Part shown: piece after piece, positions 18,310 to 23,577 of the stretch
Position numbering within the stretch: position 1 is the stretch's first letter
How the letters are laid out: each line of letters begins with the position of its first letter
Notes under the pieces: generated by a model
Seen by the model: only the letters and a program-made list of their open reading frames with translations
Database searches by the model: none
What the model was told of the DNA's origin: nothing
Source of the DNA: Ectothiorhodospiraceae bacterium
Lineage (GTDB): Bacteria > Pseudomonadota > Gammaproteobacteria > Nitrococcales > Aquisalimonadaceae
Reading direction: 5' to 3'
NCBI GenBank assembly: GCA_007117515.1
Contig: SKGQ01000031.1
Coordinates: forward strand, 1-42,274
DNA length: 42,274 nucleotides
Position numbers and translations under genes: made by a program

Positions 18310-19773
18310 GTGAAAAGCTTATTGACACATCTCACCGTTTTTCTGATTGCGCTGGCGATCGGCATCACCGCGGTCGGCGCCGACAGCGAGCGGTCACCGA
18401 TTCGGCTGCCGGACATCGGCGACCCCGCCGGACGCACCCTCACCGTGTCCCAGGAAAAGCGGCTTGGCGACAGCTTGATTCGCGAGGTGCGCCAGCGCAT
18501 TCCGCTGAGTGACGACCCGGAACTTCGGCACTACATTCAGGATCTGGGTAATCGGCTGCTCGCCAGCGCCGATAACCCCGGATTCGACTTCGAGTTCTTC
18601 GTCGTCGACAGCGGCACGGTCAATGCCTTCGCCATGCCGGGCGGCAATATCGGCATGAACAGCGGCTTGATCATGCGCACGCAGAGCGAAAGCGAGCTGG
18701 CCGCAGTCATGGCCCACGAAATCGCCCATGTCACCCAACGGCATATCGCGCGCACGCTGGACGCCACCCGGGGCAGCGGGCTGCGTACGCTGGGCATCAT
18801 CATGGCTGCCATCCTTCTGGGTATGCAGGATCCGGAAATGGGTCAGGCCGCGGCAATGACAGGTATCGCCGGTTCGATTCAGGAACAGATCAATTACACG
18901 CGCGCCCATGAACGCGAGGCGGACAACATCGGCATGCAGATTCTCGCCGGCGCTGGCCTTGACCCGCACGGCATGCCGCGCTTTTTCGAGCGTCTGCAGC
19001 AAGCCACCCGCTTCCTCGATCGGCCCCCGGAATACCTGAGCACTCACCCCGTAACCGATAATCGCATCTCCGATTCCCGGGCACGGGCCCAGGCCTACGG
19101 TGAACGGGAGAGCACCGAAAGCCCGATGTTCGACTTCATGCGGGCCCGGCTGATCGCACAGAAGGCGGATTCCGGCGAGGCGGCAGAGCGTCACTTTCGC
19201 GCGGCGATGGAAAATGCCGAATCCGATGAGCAGCGCGCCTACGCGGAATACGGGTATGCGCTGGCCCTGATGCGGAAGGATCGGTTCACGGACGCCGAAC
19301 AGACGCTGGAGCGGGTGATGGATACACTCGGTGAGCATGTGCCGATATTCAGCGCCATGGCGACTGCAGCACGAGAGGATGGACGATTGTCCGAGAGTAT
19401 CTCCCGGTATGAACTGGGTCTTAGCCTGTTCCCGCACAATTACCCGCTGACGGTCGGTCTGGCGGCGGCGTTGCTGGAGGCTGACGAACCGATGGAAGCA
19501 CGCGAACTGGTCCGTCGCCAATTGCAACGCAGCGGCCCGGATGCCCATCTTTACCGACTGCACGGACAGGCTGCGGCGGAAGCCGGTCGGCCACATGAGG
19601 GGCGACTGGCCATGGCCGAGCACTATCAAATGTACGGCAGACTGCAATTGGCCGTGGAACAGCTTAACCAGGTGATTGACGCATCCGATGCCGATATCAA
19701 TACACGCTCCCGCGCCATCTCGCGGCGGGACCAGCTGGTGCAACTTTTCGAAACGCAGAGCGAGTTCCGCTGA
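18310..19773 (+). CDS. bepA: Periplasmic M48 metalloprotease/chaperone BepA
   Basis: A 487-residue protein starting at GTG with GAGGA five bases upstream. Signal peptide 1-24; M48 domain with zinc motif HEIAH (136-140, E137 catalytic) and third ligand in EREAD (E201-D205); C-terminal TPR array (about 290-480). BepA assists LptD assembly and degrades stalled outer-membrane proteins, matching the envelope theme of BamC and Tol-Pal nearby. It ends two bases before phaE, which may share its transcript. Confidence 0.92.
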   Translation: MKSLLTHLTVFLIALAIGITAVGADSERSPIRLPDIGDPAGRTLTVSQEKRLGDSLIREVRQRIPLSDDPELRHYIQDLGNRLLASADNPGFDFEFFVVDSGTVNAFAMPGGNIGMNSGLIMRTQSESELAAVMAHEIAHVTQRHIARTLDATRGSGLRTLGIIMAAILLGMQDPEMGQAAAMTGIAGSIQEQINYTRAHEREADNIGMQILAGAGLDPHGMPRFFERLQQATRFLDRPPEYLSTHPVTDNRISDSRARAQAYGERESTESPMFDFMRARLIAQKADSGEAAERHFRAAMENAESDEQRAYAEYGYALALMRKDRFTDAEQTLERVMDTLGEHVPIFSAMATAAREDGRLSESISRYELGLSLFPHNYPLTVGLAAALLEADEPMEARELVRRQLQRSGPDAHLYRLHGQAAAEAGRPHEGRLAMAEHYQMYGRLQLAVEQLNQVIDASDADINTRSRAISRRDQLVQLFETQSEFR

Positions 19774-19775
19774 TC

Positions 19776-20603
19776 ATGCAGGGCAACTTCCTCGACCAGT
19801 GGCTGACCTGGCTGCAGCACGCCGGTGGTGAAACCGGCGGCGGCCCGCCACCCTGGCATGCGGGCCTGCGTGACACCATGGAGCATCTGGCGCGGCACCT
19901 TGGCGAGCAGGCGGACTGGCAGGAGGCCCTTGGACGACAGACCAGCGGCCTGCTGGATGGTCTGCGCCGCTATCTTGCCGAGGCGGACCAGGTCAGTCAG
20001 CGCACGGCCGAATGGCTGCAACAACTGACTCGCGGCAGGGAAGACGGCGCGGCGCCGGAACCCGCCGCCCTGCTCGGTCCACTGCTTTGCCAGTGGCCAG
20101 CGCTCGGGCTGACGGCATGTCGCGATCGCGAATGGCGACAATTGCGGGAGGCATTACCGCAGTTCCAGCGGGCACAGCGAGATTATGCAATCTGCTTGCT
20201 GCAAATGAGCGAGGACGCCGCACGCCGCTGGCGGGACGAAATGAACGCGGATTCCGGGCCACCGGACGCCCAGGCCCTGGAGCAGGCCTGGTTGACTGCA
20301 CTGGAGGCGGCCTGGCAGCAATTACTGCAGGATCCCGAGTACCAGCAATGCCTGCGCCGTCTGAATGCATCCCTGGCCACGCTGCGCGAGGCCGGTGGGC
20401 GATTGCTCGAGGACCTGCTGCAGCTGTTCCGTCTTCCCACGCGACGGGATCTGCTGGCCATCCAGCAACGCCTGCAACAACTCCGTCGGCAGATGCCGGA
20501 CCCGACGCTGCCCACCGAAATGGCAAGCCTGTATACCGAAGTCCAGGAACTGCGCAGCGAGCTTGCTGACCTGCGGCGCCAGGTCGCTGCAGATCAGCCA
20601 TGA
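19776..20603 (+). CDS. phaE: Class III PHA synthase subunit PhaE
   Basis: A 275-residue, Gln/Arg/Leu-rich helical protein. The C-terminal LPTRRDLLAIQQRLQQLRRQ (about 222-241) matches the PhaE signature (family form VPTRTE...). PhaE is required for activity of the class III synthase but has no catalytic residues. It starts two bases after bepA with only a weak ribosome site and overlaps phaC by four bases (ATGA), so the two are translationally coupled. Somewhat shorter than the Allochromatium protein, mainly in the variable middle. Confidence 0.88.
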   Translation: MQGNFLDQWLTWLQHAGGETGGGPPPWHAGLRDTMEHLARHLGEQADWQEALGRQTSGLLDGLRRYLAEADQVSQRTAEWLQQLTRGREDGAAPEPAALLGPLLCQWPALGLTACRDREWRQLREALPQFQRAQRDYAICLLQMSEDAARRWRDEMNADSGPPDAQALEQAWLTALEAAWQQLLQDPEYQQCLRRLNASLATLREAGGRLLEDLLQLFRLPTRRDLLAIQQRLQQLRRQMPDPTLPTEMASLYTEVQELRSELADLRRQVAADQP

Positions 20604-21607
20604 CCTTCATCGGACCGGACATGCTGCAGGCGCTGCGGCGCTGCAGCGCCAGACAGCCGGTGACCCGCGATGCCACGGCCTTTGACATCGTCCTGCAACA
20701 ATCGCCGTTCAGCCTGCGCCGCTATCATCTGCCGGATCGGCAACCGGGTGGCAAGCCGCTGCTGCTGGTCTATTCCACCGTCAACCGCCCCGACCTGCTG
20801 GACCTCTCCCCCCGAAGATCCATGCTGCGTCGGCTGCTGGAGGCGGGCCATGATGTCTATCTGGTGGACTGGGGCCGACCGCTCTCCGCTGACTGCCTTC
20901 TCGATCTCGATGACTACGTAGAGGATTTTCTTGGTCGCGTCGTACGCCGGCTGCGCCCGCTTAACCAGGATCAGCCACTGAATGCCATCGGCATCTGTCA
21001 GGGCGGTATCTTCCTGAGTTGTTATGCAGCTCTGCATCCGGAAGCAATCGGGCGCCTGGTCAACATGGCGGTACCGCTGAACCCGCCCGCCAGCCCTCAC
21101 GGCCTGGGGCATCTGGCAGCCACCTGGCAGTCAACGGCGCCCGCGGATGGCAACATCCCGGGACCGGCGCTGTCCGCCGCATTTACGGCTCTGAAACCCA
21201 CCGACCTGATGATTCGCCGCTACGCCAGCCTGCCCGAGGTAACCGGCAACGACGAGGCACTGGATGATTTCCTGCACCTGGAAGCATGGATGTACGACTG
21301 TCCTGACCAGCCTGCGGCGCTGTTCAATCAGTTCGTGGAAGGTATTTACCAGCAGGGGGCCCTGCTCTCCGGCGACCTCCGGATAGCCGACCGACAGGTA
21401 AATCTGGCGGCGATCCGCGCACGGGTGCTGTCGATCACTGCCGAATCCGACCACCTTGTACCGCCGGACGTAACCACCGGGCTGGAACGCCTCCTGCGGC
21501 CCGAACAGTACACCAGTCACTGCCTGCCTGGTGGGCATCTCGGCCTCTTCACCGGTGGCCGCCAGGGTCGCGCCGCCGTGCAGCATATTGTCGATTGGCT
21601 GCGGTGA
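20600..21607 (+). CDS. phaC: Class III poly(R)-hydroxyalkanoate synthase catalytic subunit PhaC
   Basis: A 335-residue alpha/beta hydrolase-like synthase, a little shorter than the usual 355-365. The lipase-like box GICQGG holds the nucleophile C133; the triad is completed by D284 (AESDHLVPP) and H313 (GGHLGLFTG). It polymerises (R)-3-hydroxybutyryl-CoA into granules. The pairing with PhaE, rather than PhaR-type subunits, defines class III, common in Chromatiales. The other PHA genes (phaA, phaR, phaB) lie opposite, across the ncRNA region. A rightward terminator stands 315 bases after the stop. Confidence 0.93.
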   Translation: MTFIGPDMLQALRRCSARQPVTRDATAFDIVLQQSPFSLRRYHLPDRQPGGKPLLLVYSTVNRPDLLDLSPRRSMLRRLLEAGHDVYLVDWGRPLSADCLLDLDDYVEDFLGRVVRRLRPLNQDQPLNAIGICQGGIFLSCYAALHPEAIGRLVNMAVPLNPPASPHGLGHLAATWQSTAPADGNIPGPALSAAFTALKPTDLMIRRYASLPEVTGNDEALDDFLHLEAWMYDCPDQPAALFNQFVEGIYQQGALLSGDLRIADRQVNLAAIRARVLSITAESDHLVPPDVTTGLERLLRPEQYTSHCLPGGHLGLFTGGRQGRAAVQHIVDWLR

Positions 21608-21740
21608 GCCGATCTTCGGAGAACAGCCCTGACTCGTTCCAGCGCGGCACAACTGATGCGCCGCAACATCAAAAATACTTGCGGCCGAGACTGCATCGCG
21701 TAGACTTCAGGGCAGTTACCCGTTCGGCGGAATGTCGGAC

Positions 21741-21766
21741 AAAAAAAACCCCCTCGGGCGAGGGGG
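21741..21766 (-). terminator. Rho-independent terminator of the candidate small RNA
   Basis: An eight-bp GC stem (CCCCCTCG with CGAGGGGG) followed, on the minus strand, by eight T residues. No minus-strand protein gene lies nearby, as phaB has its own terminator upstream, so it must serve another transcript. Confidence 0.85.
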
Positions 21767-21923
21767 CAAAAGAGGCGGCACGGGTGCCGCCTTGGAGGAG
21801 AAGGTTTCGGGTCTGACGGCCTGAGACCGGGGTCAAGCTTGATCTAGTCAAGCGCTCCGCTGGTTCCAGAGGCCGCGAGGCCGATAATCAAAAAAGCCAG
21901 ACTCAAAGAGAGCGCCGCATAAG

Positions 21924-21948
21924 GGGACCTTCGGTCCCTTTCTTTTTG
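21924..21948 (+). terminator. Rightward terminator downstream of phaEC
   Basis: GGGACC and GGTCCC pair around TTC, followed by TTTCTTTTT on the plus strand. It probably ends the phaE-phaC transcript, which would then carry a long 3' tail antisense to the candidate small RNA. Confidence 0.7.
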
Positions 21949-21967
21949 TCTGCCTTTGTTGCTTTGC

Positions 21968-21996
21968 AGCATATTCAGATATGACTAACCTGTCAA
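21968..21996 (-). promoter_or_regulatory. Sigma-70 promoter of the candidate small RNA
   Basis: On the minus strand TTGACA (21996-21991) is separated by exactly 17 bases from TATGCT (21973-21968). This is the best promoter seen in the window. Start of transcription would be at about 21961. TTGCAATGCA at about 22004-22013 lies eight bases upstream of the -35 box. Confidence 0.75.
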
Positions 21997-22003
21997 CACA
22001 TTT

Positions 22004-22013
22004 TTGCAATGCA
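22004..22013. promoter_or_regulatory. TTGCAATGCA site, possible PhaR operator
   Basis: The palindromic core TGCA-N-TGCA recurs at the phaB promoter (22931-22943) and a related form at the phaR start. PhaR proteins are reported to bind TGC-rich dyads. Assignment is inference. Confidence 0.4.
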
Positions 22014-22095: not shown

Positions 22096-22842
22096 TCAGA
22101 AGCTGGTGAACAGCCCGCCGTTGACCGGAATATTCGCGCCGTTGATGTATTCGGCGTCGTCCGCGGCAAGGAAAACCACGGTCCGGGCAATCTCATCGGG
22201 GCGACCCATTCGCCCTGCGGGAACCTGCGCGACGATACCGTTACGCACATCTTCCGGGATGGCCGCAGTCATCTCTGTCTCGATATAGCCGGGCGAGATG
22301 GTATTCGCGGTAATGCCCTTGCGCGCACCTTCTTTCGCCAGCGCCATGCTGAAGCCATGCATGCCAGCCTTGGCCGCGGAATAATTCGATTGACCGAACT
22401 GACCGGTCTGACCGTTCACCGAGGCGATGTTGACGATCCGGCCGAAACCGCGCTCACGCATGCCTTCCACGAACTGCCGGGTGACATTGAAAACGCTATC
22501 CAGGTTGGTCCGGATCACAGCATCCCAGTTCTCCCGTGCCATCTTGTGGGCAAAGGCATCACGCGTAATCCCCGCCGCGTTTACCAGCACCTCCACGGGA
22601 CCAACCTTCTCCGTCACCTGAGCCGCCATGGTGGCGCAGGCATCGAAATCCGCCACATTGCATTCCACCCAGTCAACCTGGGTACCGGCATCCGCCAGTT
22701 CCTTCTGCCAGCCGGCAATGTTTTCGCGCTCGGCATCGACACAGGTCGTAACGACCCGGTATCCGGCTGCGGCCAGTTGCTTGCAGATCTCAGTACCGAT
22801 ACCGCCGTTTCCGCCGGTGACCAGAGCAACACGATTCGTCAT
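22096..22842 (-). CDS. phaB: Acetoacetyl-CoA reductase (NADPH)
   Basis: A 248-residue short-chain dehydrogenase making (R)-3-hydroxybutyryl-CoA, the direct monomer for PhaC. The cofactor motif is TGGNGGIG (9-16) and the catalytic residues are S141, Y154 and K158 (NYSAAKAGMHG). NAAGITRDAFAHKM is the substrate-site stretch typical of PhaB rather than FabG. It lies after phaR with its own promoter and a TGCANTGCA dyad between them. An alternative FabG role is less likely given the neighbours. Confidence 0.93.
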   Translation of the reverse strand: MTNRVALVTGGNGGIGTEICKQLAAAGYRVVTTCVDAERENIAGWQKELADAGTQVDWVECNVADFDACATMAAQVTEKVGPVEVLVNAAGITRDAFAHKMARENWDAVIRTNLDSVFNVTRQFVEGMRERGFGRIVNIASVNGQTGQFGQSNYSAAKAGMHGFSMALAKEGARKGITANTISPGYIETEMTAAIPEDVRNGIVAQVPAGRMGRPDEIARTVVFLAADDAEYINGANIPVNGGLFTSF

Positions 22843-22930
22843 GGTTGAACCCCTTGATTATTAGTTGAATAACAGCACCGACCGGCGCCCATGGTTCAGG
22901 CAGGCGGTCCGTGGAGATAGCGTCGAGAAT

Positions 22931-22943
22931 GTTGCAATGCAAC
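22931..22943. promoter_or_regulatory. GTTGCA-A-TGCAAC dyad, probable PhaR operator of phaB
   Basis: A perfect inverted repeat with six-bp arms and one central base, just downstream of the predicted phaB transcription start. That is a good position for a repressor. The gene for PhaR, a PHA-responsive repressor, is next door. Confidence 0.5.
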
Positions 22944-22954
22944 AATACACGGGC

Positions 22955-23031: not shown

Positions 23032-23577
23032 CTACTTGCCGCCCGCCTGGCGTCGCGGGCCCGGCTCCGGTTTGTCTGAGGCGGCCTGATGATCCTGTTT
23101 CGCTGCCGGTGTCCCAGCCTTCGGCGGCTCGGCACCCTTGCCTTCCTCGCCGGCGACGCCACTCATGGCACGCCACATCGCCAGATTGCGCTCGGCAATC
23201 TGGGTCAGCATGGTCATCGGGTTGCCGTCCATGAACTCACGAGTCCGCTCGCGAAAGGCCCGCTGCTGCTCGGACCACATATCCATGCTCTTTTCCAGAT
23301 AACTGGTCAGCAGGTTCTGCATGTTGCCACCGTAGGAACGGATGATCTGCGCCAGCAGGTCACTGCTGAAGATCGGCTCACCGCCCTCTTCTTCCTCACT
23401 GATGATCTGCAGCAGGATTGTCCGCGTCAGATCATCCTTGCTCTTGGCCTCGATGACCTGAAAATCCACACCATCGATAACCAGCCGCTTCACATCCGCA
23501 AGCGTAATGTAGCTGCTGATCGCCGTGTCGTAGAGGCGGCGATTCGGATACTTCTTGATGATACGAACGTCTGTCAT
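23032..23577 (-). CDS. phaR: PHA synthesis repressor PhaR
   Basis: A 181-residue protein. The N-terminal DNA-binding domain (RIIKKYPNRRLYDTAISSYI, about 4-23, through DLTRTILLQII) and the following PHB_acc domain (about 70-120) match PhaR of Cupriavidus and Paracoccus, which represses phasin and phaR genes until it binds PHA granules. The C-terminal tail (about 150-181) is Pro/Ala/Lys-rich and low in structure. TTGCAATATGC occurs 15 bases upstream of the start, suggesting autoregulation. Start 23577 is set by the conserved N-terminus. Confidence 0.92.
   Translation of the reverse strand: MTDVRIIKKYPNRRLYDTAISSYITLADVKRLVIDGVDFQVIEAKSKDDLTRTILLQIISEEEEGGEPIFSSDLLAQIIRSYGGNMQNLLTSYLEKSMDMWSEQQRAFRERTREFMDGNPMTMLTQIAERNLAMWRAMSGVAGEEGKGAEPPKAGTPAAKQDHQAASDKPEPGPRRQAGGK

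Follow-up and report, generated by a model that had tools for sequence, protein, structure and literature searches.

A predicted PhaR-controlled anti-Shine-Dalgarno small RNA with a candidate antisense partner in the phaB-phaC intergenic region of halophilic and alkaliphilic gammaproteobacteria

Background

The convergent genes phaC and phaB of an Ectothiorhodospiraceae bacterium enclose a minus-strand stretch that has a promoter and a terminator of its own, which raises the question of what is transcribed there and what the transcript may act upon. An earlier note, made from the DNA alone, had described this stretch as a candidate for an undescribed small RNA (sRNA) that could link the state of the PHA stores to other mRNAs or to the stability of phaEC. 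Here, the unit was analyzed in the window (the whole stretch of DNA under study, 42,274 nucleotides of contig SKGQ01000031.1) and compared with its counterparts in related genomes, with Rfam, and with PhaR operators and regulatory RNAs from the literature. PhaR is the reader of whether the cell holds storage polymer, and its gene lies close by.

The unit and its surroundings

The plus-strand gene phaC (20600..21607), coding for a class III PHA synthase subunit, has TIGR01836 as its best match (E 1.5e-77, below the curated cutoff), while phaB (22096..22842, minus strand; acetoacetyl-CoA reductase; TIGR01829, 358 bits) and phaR (23032..23577, minus strand; PHA-responsive regulator; TIGR01848, 158 bits) both score over their cutoffs. 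Directly upstream of phaE lies an M48 peptidase gene with TPR repeats (18310-19773). Between the ends of phaC (21607) and phaB (22096), the minus strand carries a sigma70-type promoter, TTGACA-N17-TATGCT (21968..21996), and an intrinsic terminator (21741..21767) made of an 8-bp GC stem (21767-21748) and eight T residues. The sRNA gene that they delimit (21741..21961, minus strand) would be about 221 nt long, from an inferred start at 21961 to the end of the U run, based on promoter and terminator scans, sequence and conservation. As phaB has its own minus-strand terminator (22066-22040), the unit serves no visible protein gene, in agreement with the earlier note. On the plus strand, an intrinsic terminator (21921..21948) would end phaEC transcripts and closes a phaC 3' UTR of 314 nt, which the sRNA overlaps. 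The minus-strand unit between phaC and phaB was thus confirmed, with promoter, stem and T run, phaB terminator and opposing plus-strand terminator all in place.

The 222-nt sequence has a folding energy of -89.5 kcal/mol (z -3.35 relative to dinucleotide shuffles). The promoter match taken alone is at chance level, with one found against 0.9 expected per 3 kb, and the case therefore rests on the comparison between genomes.

Conservation across the order

In a DNA search, two genomes of the same genus had the complete unit (81% identity), and the 3' module was present throughout the family of the window. The covariance model built from this 3' module matched at E ≤ 0.01 in 43 of the 54 genomes of the order in which it was searched, with strong matches (E ≤ 1e-5) in 27, including every one of the 12 genomes of family f5 and 13/14 of f1, the family of the window. 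Weak matches distant from PHA genes in genus g9 of family f4 were taken as chance, and a wider class-level search added 26 more genomes, whose matches were weaker and mixed. At 25 of the 29 best loci (L102-L130), phaB and/or phaC stands beside the match within the examined flank, and two of the four exceptions belong to genomes with a further copy at PHA genes. In G004, the phaB-phaC gap holds a tandem pair of copies (L270:2153-2555) and a third lies elsewhere, and in G007 a further copy adjoins phaR (L023). A gene similar to the M48/TPR peptidase of the window also adjoins this last copy. Relatives have the same series of elements, from promoter and operator through UCUCCUCC and the hairpin to the terminator, at the equivalent position between phaB and phaC.

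Neither the window locus nor 14 related loci matched any Rfam family at threshold when gathering and relaxed thresholds were used. Three candidate assignments of the window sRNA were rejected on score, namely RF00519 (13.3 bits, cutoff 41), the Betaproteobacteria toxic sRNA RF02278 (18.0 bits, cutoff 50) and anti-hemB RF02837 (28.7 bits, cutoff 49.5). Two of the checks that the earlier note had proposed, Rfam models and a covariance search in relatives, came out in favor of its claim that the PHA locus holds an undescribed small RNA: there is no match to a known RNA at threshold, and the conserved family is kept mostly beside phaB or phaC. On this comparative evidence we regard the predicted sRNA as real and as undescribed in the sources searched.

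Other loci with similar elements were also recorded. In a different gammaproteobacterial family, L222 and L224 (~1501-1573) have a CUCCUCC-hairpin-terminator directly 3' of a small Ala/Lys-rich ORF with no Pfam match; in L224, both come after phaA and phaR. L221 (1450-1571), where the RNA adjoins phaR, and L220 (upstream of 1501-1586) are loci from beyond the order, each with a CUCCUCC RNA whose TTGAC promoter is accompanied by a PhaR-like box.

Structure and strand of the RNA

The 3' module consists of the terminator stem and of a hairpin, AGGCGGCA...TGCCGCCT (21773..21792, minus strand), placed after the anti-Shine-Dalgarno (anti-SD) stretch described below. Two-sided changes were seen in 14 of its 15 base pairs, i.e., in all seven modelled pairs of the hairpin and in seven of the eight of the terminator, in an alignment of 32 copies that was fitted to the covariance model and hence leans towards its own structure. 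In the same alignment, 98.2% of cells were paired (86.2% in shuffles), and the covariation score of 0.359, against 0.115 in shuffles, was reached by none of 500 shuffles and was destroyed when the pairing partners were slid. Thirteen sequences aligned without the model already had compensatory changes in three pairs. The earlier note had counted four stable hairpins; the two at the 3' end covary strongly, but the others do not share this support. The 5' two thirds of the sRNA are variable and the full-length consensus fold recovered the 3' module only, a GCGCTC/GAGCGC stem that can be seen by eye in most copies being absent from it.

Overall folding energy hardly favours either strand and does not settle which one is primary. 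The cells of the anti-SD hairpin include 12 G-U and no A-C combinations, and for this reason the hairpin appears to be kept in the minus-strand RNA.

PhaR-type operators

PhaR sites of Ralstonia (R.) eutropha follow YTKNTGCRNYGCANMAR (PMC12849132). In the window, a predicted operator of this type, TGCTGCAAAGCAACA (TGTTGCTTTGCAGCA; 21957..21971, minus strand), with about two mismatches to the R. eutropha-derived consensus, overlaps the -10 and start of the sRNA. A second core, TTGCAATGCA (22004..22013), lies upstream of the sRNA -35, resembling the position of BS1 at R. eutropha phaP1, and is not kept in all relatives. This is the promoter motif that the earlier note had pointed out here and at phaB: it is real and corresponds to the core of a PhaR-type box, yet the better box over the start had been overlooked. 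Further operators were predicted in the phaB promoter region (TGTTGCAATGCAACA, 22930..22944) and on the plus strand at 21654..21668 (TGATGCGCCGCAACA), from where it faces the sRNA from the 3' side. The window thus has three exact TGNTGCNNNGCANCA boxes, at 21654, 21957 and 22930.

A predicted PhaR box with at most one mismatch was found upstream of 21 of the 24 phasin genes of the family, compared with 1.3% of shuffled segments, a difference that connects the box with the PHA regulon in this family. In most copies of f1 and f5, as well as in L128, L130 and L265, a TTGAC promoter is again accompanied by a PhaR box, with a constant offset of 25-29 nt between the two. Since PhaR-type operators stand at the sRNA promoter as well as at phaB and the majority of phasin genes, the link to PHA state suggested by the earlier note holds up at the level of predicted operators, and PhaR control of the sRNA is well supported as a prediction.

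Exact PhaR-type boxes elsewhere in the same genome lie upstream of a putative exported protein gene (L037:1501-1515) and of a LysR-type gene (L031:1501-1515). In three sRNA copies of the Aquisalimonas group situated away from the phaB-phaC gap (L105, L107 and L022), the promoter has a TGTACA-type palindrome and no PhaR box, which suggests another regulator.

The anti-Shine-Dalgarno stretch and its candidate targets

Directly 5' of the conserved hairpin lies the stretch UUCUCCUCC (21794..21802, minus strand), unpaired both in the fold and in the consensus structure, within which UCUCCUCC is invariant in 13 of 13 family copies (alignment A2). UCUCCUCC is the complement of GGAGGAGA, and is complementary to strong Shine-Dalgarno (SD) sequences. 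Since it is nearly invariant, and copies occur in tandem and away from phaB and phaC, the sRNA likely acts in trans as an anti-SD RNA; the action on other mRNAs proposed by the earlier note is in this way supported indirectly, by the unpaired stretch and the copies away from PHA genes.

The target search found 12 sites in the same genome with GGAGGAGA before an ATG, few of which are common to relatives. The recurrent candidate was prpE, whose 12 family orthologues all have GGAGGAG before the start, compared with a background of 6/289 sampled ORFs (~2%) in the genome of the window; GAGGAG is often also present before a second acs-like gene. A duplex-energy ranking of 313 genes singled out no PHA gene, nor prpE (prpE at rank 21, the phasin start region at about rank 183). 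We treat prpE as a lead, bearing in mind that a strong SD could be no more than a sign of high expression. In G004, there are 79 GGAGGAGA-N-ATG sites in a 4.0-Mb genome, compared with 12 in the 2.4-Mb genome of the window, and several of them (loci L162-L191) precede transport and dehydrogenase genes.

A candidate antisense RNA on the opposite strand

On the plus strand, downstream of the operator at 21654..21668, a predicted promoter (TTGCGG-N16-TAGACT, 21679..21706) and the plus-strand terminator would delimit an antisense RNA of about 236 nt (21713..21948) that would span most of the sRNA and carry GGAGGAG. The layout of this promoter is fixed across the order, consisting of the PhaR box, 10 nt, TTGC(C/G)N or TTGTCA, 16 nt, and TANAAT. 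Many relatives have TTGCCA-N16-TACAAT, and at 22 loci the -10 departs from TANAAT by no more than one mismatch, at many of them by none; the version in the window is degraded (TTGCGG, TAGACT). Of the 28 related loci at which the sRNA promoter was located, 17 have a plus-strand hairpin with a T run at the 5' end of the sRNA. The earlier note had considered the sRNA as antisense to the phaEC 3' tail; an effect on phaEC stability by this route is possible but would be secondary. The opposite strand has a conserved promoter of its own, which makes a dedicated antisense transcript more likely than the phaEC tail alone. An antisense partner of the sRNA is plausible on these grounds.

Gaps between phaB and phaC in other families (L266, L269, L271, L272, L273 and L276) have two PhaR boxes flanking a similar CUCCUCC element; their minus strands are without the TTGAC promoter and the T-run terminator, and the plus-strand elements largely remain (in g9, the plus-strand -10 is weak too). 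In G017, the PHA locus (L273) has the plus-strand unit only, and a CUCCUCC RNA with a PhaR-like box and a terminator is found elsewhere (L124). Because some lineages lack the minus-strand signals and largely keep the plus-strand elements, the plus-strand RNA could be the older partner, with the order apparently keeping the sRNA/antisense pair in different forms.

Proposed mechanism and alternative explanations

We consider it probable that the minus-strand unit is a PhaR-controlled, trans-acting anti-SD sRNA between phaB and phaC that has an antisense partner. Without PHA, PhaR bound to the operator over the start would block transcription of the sRNA; as granules form and PhaR is titrated, the sRNA would be made along with phasin and PhaB. 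UCUCCUCC would then pair with the strong SD of trans-encoded mRNAs and repress their translation, plausibly that of carbon-entry genes such as prpE. The antisense RNA, with its GGAGGAG and made from the second conserved promoter with its own PhaR box, would sequester the sRNA or aid its degradation. PhaR may work as a reciprocal switch, repressing the sRNA and activating the antisense RNA, given that the box of the latter lies upstream of its promoter -35; this is the least certain step, and the second box may also serve as an auxiliary operator through DNA looping. The full two-RNA switch, in which PhaR senses PHA granules, represses the anti-SD sRNA and activates the RNA that neutralises it, so that polymer state flips a broad translational brake on carbon entry, is put forward only tentatively.

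The roles of the strands might also be reversed, the plus-strand RNA being the primary, ancestral regulator, a PhaR-driven GGAGGAG sponge of CUCCUCC-type sRNAs, to which some families later added the minus unit. The order PhaR box-N10-TTGC-N16-TANAAT and the plus-strand hairpin with a T run are indeed present even where the minus-strand promoter and terminator are not, as at L273 in G017 with its CUCCUCC RNA at L124. We nevertheless hold this to be unlikely, as the excess of G-U over A-C cells in the anti-SD hairpin points to the minus-strand RNA. A complete set of promoter, operator and terminator for this RNA occurs in f5 and in most f1 genomes, whereas the antisense promoter is unrecognisable at several f5 loci and its version in the window is weak. 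That the minus-strand RNA acts in cis only, setting phaEC mRNA stability as an antisense to the 3' tail, would be in keeping with its overlap of the phaC 3' UTR up to the plus-strand terminator; the near-invariant UCUCCUCC and the copies away from phaC argue for action in trans, the overlapped sequence beyond the 3' module is poorly conserved, and we give this reading little credit.

Two further readings have even less in their favor. Convergent genes often have bidirectional terminators and the promoter match is at chance level, so that the minus-strand RNA might be a functionless product of such terminators and spurious promoters. It is hard to reconcile this with the separate terminator of phaB (22066-22040) or with the conservation across families of promoter-operator spacing, anti-SD and covarying hairpin, and we regard it as very improbable. 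A short reading frame would fit within the transcript length; nonetheless, the same-genus copies measure 222, 216 and 223 nt, with scattered indels and lengths that differ by non-multiples of three, no start or frame was seen to be shared among them, and the 60-aa ORF extends through the terminator, which leaves next to no room for a small protein.

Comparison with known systems

The nearest functional parallel is MmgR/alpha-r8 (RF00519) of Sinorhizobium meliloti, which is repressed by PhaR/AniA via a promoter palindrome, lowers phasins and takes part in PHB control (PMC12542648, PMC8401924, PMC12559287). Both RNAs have a PhaR-type promoter palindrome (in the window, the predicted box 21957-21971 over the -10 and start), an anti-SD-type core and a link to PHA/PHB. 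However, MmgR is alphaproteobacterial and 77 nt long, compared with ~221 nt here, and no PhaR-linked antisense partner has been reported for it in the literature surveyed, whereas one is predicted at the window locus. SisA-D of Caulobacter crescentus have an anti-SD 10-mer in common and are countered by the sponge CrfA (PMC12559287), and thus resemble the present case in having sibling anti-SD sRNAs in several copies and an RNA sponge against them; CrfA is a separate carbon-starvation RNA, while the sponge candidate of the window is the opposite strand under a PhaR box. NmsRA/NmsRB of Neisseria meningitidis are sibling sRNAs that use a UC-rich anti-SD to repress carbon genes, prpB and prpC among them (PMC5362039), and offer a parallel for anti-SD regulation of propionate genes; they are tied to the stringent response instead of a PHA locus. 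The Burkholderia toxic sRNA (RF02278) and anti-hemB (RF02837) have, like the window sRNA, a short CU-rich single strand, a hairpin and a terminator.

With its predicted TGNTGCNNNGCANCA-type operator at the promoter, the sRNA locus shares a trait of the PhaR regulon. In R. eutropha, the control of phaP1 is explained by steric repression, with PhaR on a box over the start, and that of phaP3 by activation from an upstream box (PMC12849132); the repression of the sRNA and the possible activation of the antisense promoter are proposed here by analogy. Where that regulon has phaP1-like and phaP3-like layouts, the window has both, head to head on one non-coding element.

Conclusions

In the literature surveyed, PhaR-controlled sRNAs come from alphaproteobacteria only (MmgR), and the present case belongs to halophilic and alkaliphilic gammaproteobacteria. 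A second PhaR-linked sRNA, predicted inside the PHA locus itself and opposed by a candidate antisense promoter with a PhaR box, suggests that the coupling of granule state to anti-SD regulation either has more than one evolutionary origin or goes back further than assumed so far. The locus would offer a compact system for studying how the storage state resets the translation of carbon genes, and may provide a handle for PHA production in halophiles.
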